A stretch of DNA of 34,899 nt from Magnetococcales bacterium (GTDB lineage: Bacteria; Pseudomonadota; Magnetococcia; Magnetococcales; UBA8363), in the NCBI GenBank assembly GCA_015228975.1, contig JADGCN010000022.1:1-34899 (forward strand), written 5' to 3'. Position 1 is the first letter of the stretch. Each line of letters begins with the position of its first letter. Positions 5,811 to 6,465 of the stretch are shown here, piece by piece. The translations under genes and the position numbers were made by a program. The notes under the pieces were generated by a model. The model was not told the DNA's origin, did not search any database, and worked only from the letters and a program-made list of their open reading frames with translations.

Positions 5811-5819
5811 GTGATTCGC
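5811..5819. repeat. Left copy of 9-bp target-site duplication
   Basis: GTGATTCGC directly abuts the left end of the MITE-like element and recurs exactly at its right end (5989-5997). This is the signature of transposition. Confidence 0.85.
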
Positions 5820-5988
5820 GGCCTTGATCATCGTTTCGGCCAAAGCGCATGGAAGATGCTTCGGCTCCGTCTGGATTCCCGCTTTCGCGGGAATGACAAA
5901 CGACTGCAATCTCAGGAGATTTTTTCGTCATTCCCGCGAAAGCGGGAATCCAGAATGAGTCGGCACGGACGAAATGATGATCAAGGCC
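5820..5988. mobile_element. MITE-like element, copy 1 (169 bp)
   Basis: The termini are inverted repeats: the left end GGCCTTGATCATCGTTTCG matches the reverse complement of the right end with one difference over 19 bases. Inside are two palindromes, 5875-5894 and 5930-5949, each fitting ATTCCC-N8-GGGAAT, and together they form a large inverted repeat able to fold into a long hairpin. The element has no coding capacity. It is bounded by a perfect 9-bp direct repeat, so it probably moved as a non-autonomous unit using a transposase encoded elsewhere. It differs from copy 2 at only two positions, suggesting recent activity or gene conversion. The palindromes resemble the neisserial dRS3 consensus. 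Confidence 0.88.
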
Positions 5989-5997
5989 GTGATTCGC
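5989..5997. repeat. Right copy of 9-bp target-site duplication
   Basis: GTGATTCGC, identical to the left copy at 5811-5819, immediately after the GGCC end of the element. Confidence 0.85.
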
Positions 5998-6043: not shown

Positions 6044-6121
6044 GCGCCCGTAGCTCAGCCTGGATAGAGCAACTGGCTACGAACCAGTAGGCCGGAGGTT
6101 CGAATCCTTCCGGGCGCGCCA
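6044..6121 (+). tRNA. tRNA-Arg (ACG)
   Basis: Complete tRNA with acceptor GCGCCCG/CGGGCGC, anticodon stem ACTGG/CCAGT around loop CTACGAA (anticodon ACG, expected to be edited to ICG), T-arm GGTTCGAATCC and encoded CCA. It lies between two near-identical MITE copies, within the only region of the window with accessory character. Confidence 0.95.
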
Positions 6122-6133
6122 ATTTAACTAAAC

Positions 6134-6157
6134 AACCACCGGCTAAAGCCGGTGGTT
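6134..6157. repeat. Perfect hairpin downstream of tRNA-Arg
   Basis: A 10-bp perfect stem (AACCACCGGC with GCCGGTGGTT) closes a TAAA loop 12 bases after the tRNA. No T-run follows, so it is not a standard terminator. It could be a processing hairpin or the remnant of a hairpin-ended insertion element. Confidence 0.6.
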
Positions 6158-6296: not shown

Positions 6297-6465
6297 GGCC
6301 TTGATCATCGTTTCGGCCAAAGCGCATGGAAGATGCTTCGGCTCCGTCTGGATTCCCGCTTTCGCGGGAATGACAAACGACTGCAATCTCAGGAGATTCT
6401 TTCGTCATTCCCGCGAAAGCGGGAATCCAGAATGAGTCGGCACGGACGAAACGATGATCAAGGCC
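6297..6465. mobile_element. MITE-like element, copy 2 (169 bp)
   Basis: Same length and orientation as copy 1, with two substitutions in 169 bases. Here the GGCCTTGATCATCGTTTCG terminal repeats are perfect over 19 bases. It holds the same pair of ATTCCC-N8-GGGAAT palindromes. Its flanks show no target duplication (CCAAGCAAC on the left, CAATCGATG on the right), so one flank has changed, by recombination between copies, by deletion, or by a later rearrangement. The element ends 45 bases from the stop of the minus-strand response regulator, so its palindromes could also act as the 3' end of that transcript. The stretch 6122-6510 holds only the two hairpins and this element. Confidence 0.85.

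Follow-up and report, generated by a model that had tools for sequence, protein, structure and literature searches.

How did a 169-bp non-coding element come to lie between rsgA and a tRNA-Arg gene in a Magnetococcales genome, and which enzyme could have moved it there? The window studied here, i.e., the whole 34,899-bp stretch of contig JADGCN010000022.1, belongs to a Magnetococcales MAG that is 76% complete and fragmented into 234 contigs, with contig breaks frequently located at this repeat. A preliminary description had reported a 169-bp non-coding element framed by an exact 9-bp repeat downstream of rsgA and had ascribed it to a transposition event. The features of the locus are as follows.

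5811–5819, no strand: left copy of the target-site duplication, 9 bp, GTGATTCGC, found once at the empty site in contig C59 of genome G005
5820–5988, plus strand: MITE copy 1, 169 bp, non-autonomous
5820–5841, plus strand: left terminal inverted repeat, GGCCTTGATCATCGTTTCGGCC, common to DUF6399 elements
5871–5898, minus strand: CGTC-type REP (class as in PMC3733652), first unit of the head-to-head dimer, with tag TGTC and tail CCA
5926–5953, plus strand: CGTC-type REP (class as in PMC3733652), CGTCATTCCCGCGAAAGCGGGAATCCAG, second unit of this dimer
5967–5988, minus strand: right terminal inverted repeat, reading GGCCTTGATCATCATTTCGTCC on the minus strand
5989–5997, no strand: right copy of the target-site duplication, 9 bp, GTGATTCGC
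6297–6465, plus strand: element copy 2, with two differences from copy 1 and no target duplication (CCAAGCAAC / CAATCGATG)

Structure of the element and its empty site

The exact 9-bp frame was confirmed at 5811–5819 and 5989–5997, and the upstream gene was verified as rsgA by a TIGR00157 match above cut-off; the tRNA-Arg gene at 6044–6121 lies between copies 1 and 2. Twenty of the 22 outer bp match between the inverted repeats of copy 1, and the entire element, which contains no gene, forms a single long imperfect palindrome with a fold energy of -107 kcal/mol (z = -13). Copy 1 thus has the inverted ends, the exact 9-bp duplication, the absence of coding capacity and the empty site that characterize a MITE. 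When the window was scanned for inverted ends that match at 17 or more of 19 positions and are enclosed by a 9-bp direct repeat, one case was found, against none in 20 shuffled windows. Directly past the tRNA-Arg gene, at window positions 6134–6157, there is another palindrome, AACCACCGGCTAAAGCCGGTGGTT, and the stretch surrounding it is also found elsewhere in genome G000 and in G005.

The same locus was revealed without the element in contig C59 of the sister genome G005, which belongs to the same genus. The pieces of the G005 match end and resume at the left and right GTGATTCGC and overlap by exactly nine bases; when the window flanks are joined around one GTGATTCGC, the two sequences align without gaps from rsgA through tRNA-Arg, with a flank identity of about 96%. 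Since the empty site carries only one GTGATTCGC, the insertion is proven, and the 9-bp repeat arose as a target duplication; it is not an ancestral feature of this place, which the preliminary description had named as a possible refutation besides proposing to look for empty sites in close relatives. The transposition event that it had postulated is therefore borne out: the element inserted between rsgA and tRNA-Arg recently, after this lineage split from G005.

Additional copies and spread of the ends

The preliminary description did not include copy 2, which was found in this work 477 bp downstream of copy 1 and in the same orientation. It differs from copy 1 at positions 103 and 156 (2 of 169), and 21 of its 22 outer bp match between the inverted repeats. 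It may have arisen by recombination, or it may be an insertion that has lost a flank to deletion. Recombination between copies, as opposed to independent insertion, may account for some copies of this genome, although we consider it a less likely origin. It agrees with the lack of a duplication at copy 2, with the 99% identity and 477-bp distance between the two copies and with the absence of exact duplications from 35 of 81 paired elements (see below), but mutation or flanking deletion can equally remove duplications. This side question does not touch copy 1 or the copies with private duplications, to which recombination is inapplicable.

With up to two mismatches allowed, the 17-bp end was detected 33 times per strand in the MAG, while a reversed control gave no matches. 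The genome contains dozens of dispersed element copies sharing their boundaries, and most full copies have private 8-bp duplications (GATTTAAC, AAGGATTC, CCAGTTCC, CGTTTTGC, CGAACTCG, GTTGGGGA). Further copies thus end at the same base and have duplications of their own, of 8 bp and sometimes of 9 bp, so that this check proposed in the preliminary description, like that for an empty site, turned out in its favour.

The matches listed in an exact search with the 19-bp end came from Magnetococcales, Desulfobacteraceae and other Desulfobacterales, Chromatiaceae, Anaerolineales and a few others. In the retrieved loci from many genomes we distinguished 81 different short paired elements. Exact duplications of 8 bp were found in 38 of them, of 9 bp in seven and of six bp in one, and 35 had none; duplications of 4, 5 or 7 bp did not occur in this set. 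A weak symmetric bias is discernible in the target sites: their edges favour G/C and their centre A followed by T. Matches of the end sequence in an Ensifer plasmid and a viral contig proved to be isolated and single, not elements, and those in C61 and C74 were decayed ends (about 75 bp). The end sequence had no match in phages and was not found in the literature searched. On a Thiodictyon plasmid, a 125-bp element with the same ends and the duplication GACGAGTA (L271, 5001–5125) directly adjoins a gene annotated as a Phd/YefM antitoxin, at its 3' end.

The interior is a pair of CGTC-type REPs

The two interior units have a CGTC/TGTC tag, a stem led by complementary AT residues, a short loop and a CCA tail and form a head-to-head dimer, as do the CGTC REPs described earlier, a class that corresponds to dRS3 in Neisseria and for which no dedicated transposase was reported (PMC3733652). 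In contrast to those, the dimer is carried here as a passenger, enclosed by transposon ends and target duplications. In Halothiobacillus, CGTC-1 dimers are reported to sit inside 41-bp palindromes (PMC3733652).

In view of this composition, the repeat might instead be a REP/BIME-type unit: a REP-associated tyrosine (HUH) transposase or palindrome recombination would have dispersed it, and the 9-bp repeat would be incidental. Dimers of this type do occur free-standing in the same genome (C168, C201, C11, C155). However, the empty site in G005 shows that 169 bp and 9 bp were gained together, which already contradicts such an origin, and exact 8–9-bp duplications are found at the same outer ends in 45 of the 81 elements irrespective of the interior. 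The ends are common to the elements and the interiors are not: CGTC-like interiors are present in 33 elements of the set, and the others have other palindromes or none. HUH transposition is not known to yield such 8–9-bp target duplications. Together with the lack of a dedicated transposase for CGTC REPs, this makes a REP/BIME-type origin very improbable. In one element (L145, 6658–7401) the interior consists of CGTC-type REP units in an array expanded to 744 bp, and the ends and the 8-bp duplications GCAAATCG are kept.

Elements encoding DUF6399 proteins have the same ends

Candidates for the mobiliser were sought among ORFs located beside unpaired ends, without prior choice of a family. One of 41 proteins matched PF19936 (DUF6399); it is encoded next to an exact copy of the end on a Desulfobacteraceae contig. 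DUF6399 proved to be present in seven of 18 carrier genomes, often in multiple copies. A full-length element with the same termini, the existence of which had been suggested for checking, was thus found in other genomes, and it encodes a DUF6399 protein. The elements with duplications are listed below.

L294, Magnetococcales: 1882 bp, ends 22/22, duplication CCAATCTT, DUF6399 gene open
L292, Lamprocystis: 1918 bp, same ends, duplication GCGCATTG, DUF6399 gene open
L310, Thiodictyon plasmid: 1916 bp, same ends, duplication GTCCAACC, DUF6399 gene open
L305: 1793 bp, same ends, duplication GGAATTGC, DUF6399 gene apparently broken into frames
L302: 1918 bp, same ends, duplication AGCCGGTTG, DUF6399 gene apparently broken into frames
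L311, viral contig: distant DUF6399 relative, other ends GGCTACCCACTTAAAGCGGGAC (22/22), 8-bp duplication TTCATTTT
L352, Crinalium plasmid: distant DUF6399 relative, other ends GGCTACCAATCTAAGGCG (18/18), 8-bp duplication CGTTTTCT

In total, exact 8–9-bp duplications flank seven DUF6399 elements from Magnetococcales, Chromatiaceae, a cyanobacterial plasmid and a viral contig. As the last two elements of the list have different perfect ends, the association of DUF6399 with ends is independent of one end sequence. Three further loci (L293, L296 and L298) contain DUF6399 with the ends of the window element and no duplication, the ends being near-perfect in L296 (Desulfobacteraceae). No ends with duplications were found around the DUF6399 genes of Acaryochloris, Methylomonas and L291. 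The Crinalium element (L352, 1229–3733) is longer, 2505 bp, and has a second ORF on the opposite strand (149 aa, no Pfam match).

The location of these genes between shared ends with duplications suggests that DUF6399 is an unrecognised transposase. The proteins are about 530–600 residues long; DUF6399 is located C-terminally (E-values for PF19936 down to 1e-66), and a weak HTH match lies close to the N-terminus. They gave no match above cut-off to Pfam or NCBIfam transposase models and no meaningful match to PDB sequences. The motifs DET, SD, DxFH and VEGRNG are invariant in seven diverse sequences, which suggests that the invariant D, D and E might constitute a DDE catalytic set. A structure predicted from two sequences only has a mean pLDDT of 43. 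Pfam lists PF19936 as of unknown function, and no paper naming DUF6399 was found in the literature searched; a transposase role for this family is therefore new relative to both.

Named IS families as alternative mobilisers

Alternatively, the MITE might be moved by a named IS family with 8–9-bp duplications (IS1595, IS1, IS256, ISL3 or another), the DUF6399 gene being a passenger of some elements. The duplication length and the ends starting with GGC would also fit such families, DUF6399 was not found in the genus of the window, and the Crinalium element does contain a second ORF. We analyzed the genes of the four families in the carrier genomes, and none of them has these ends. For IS1595, a candidate suggested by the ends (GGCnnTG) and 8-bp duplications of the short elements, the PF12762 genes lacked matching ends and several copies have clear ends of their own. 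The ends were absent from all 18 loci with PF03400 genes (IS1), the PF00872 genes (IS256) had no matching ends, and the same was true for each ISL3 gene found. Moreover, the 1.8–1.9-kb elements contain no gene besides DUF6399, and distant DUF6399 genes likewise lie between perfect ends with 8-bp duplications. On the basis of the four families covered, we therefore regard a named IS family as an improbable source of the mobility.

The ISL3 family deserves a separate comparison. It makes 8-bp duplications, as do the DUF6399 elements, and the order of motifs is alike (DE, D, DxFH some 20 residues further on, then ExxN). Unlike ISL3, in which the distance from DxFH to E is about 135 residues, DUF6399 proteins have about 250; they gave no PF01610 match, and a profile comparison aligned the HTH region only, without significance.

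Distribution of DUF6399 and the presumed local source

With no more than one mismatch allowed in 18, the ends were found in 26 of 48 Magnetococcales genomes: in all seven DUF6399-positive genomes and in 19 of 41 DUF6399-negative ones (Fisher p = 0.009, relatedness ignored). The largest number of end copies, 210, was observed in G037, which has DUF6399 genes. No DUF6399 gene was found in the genome of the window or in seven other genomes of the genus, several of which are 95–99% complete; this genome-wide search is consistent with the statement in the preliminary description that the window lacks the mobilising transposase. Copy 1 is nevertheless younger than the split from G005. Either the local DUF6399 source was lost, or the plasmid or repeat contig that carries it escaped binning; repeats drop out of MAGs easily.

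Discussion

Our main reading, to which we assign a probability of about 0.85, is that the MITE inserted with a 9-bp duplication and was moved in trans by a predicted DUF6399 (PF19936) transposase whose local source is lost or unbinned. The element consists of two 22-bp ends around a passenger, the head-to-head pair of CGTC-type REPs. Binding of the ends would presumably be the task of the N-terminal helix-turn-helix region of the enzyme, and cutting and joining would fall to a DDE-type core, for which D178, D232 and E505 (L294 numbering) are the candidate residues; staggered cuts 9 bp apart would have led to the insertion between rsgA and tRNA-Arg. The ends alone are apparently sufficient for recognition, because MITEs and autonomous elements have only about 22 bp in common.

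The element resembles bacterial MITEs mobilised in trans by IS elements in being short and non-coding, with inverted ends, exact duplications, many copies and an empty site, and in the existence of an autonomous element with the same ends, here in other genomes and not in its own genus. It differs from them in that its partner is a DUF6399 element and not a member of a named IS family, in that the MITE shares nothing with this partner beyond the 22-bp ends, and in that the same ends are found in several phyla around unrelated interiors. The empty site, copy 2, the cross-phylum spread of the ends and the probable transposase family are new beyond the preliminary description.

More tentatively, DUF6399 might represent a previously unrecognised IS family, distributed at least in Magnetococcales, Chromatiaceae, Desulfobacterales and cyanobacteria, its MITEs being one dispersal vehicle for CGTC-type REPs; we put this forward as a possibility that is somewhat less likely to be right than wrong. 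Because only the 22-bp ends are common to them and the autonomous element, the MITEs would define a minimal substrate on which the enzyme could be assayed. The results offer a probable function, that of a transposase, for a protein family listed as unknown and tie it to small repeats abundant in several bacterial groups; the MITEs suggest a route of movement for REP pairs without a known transposase.
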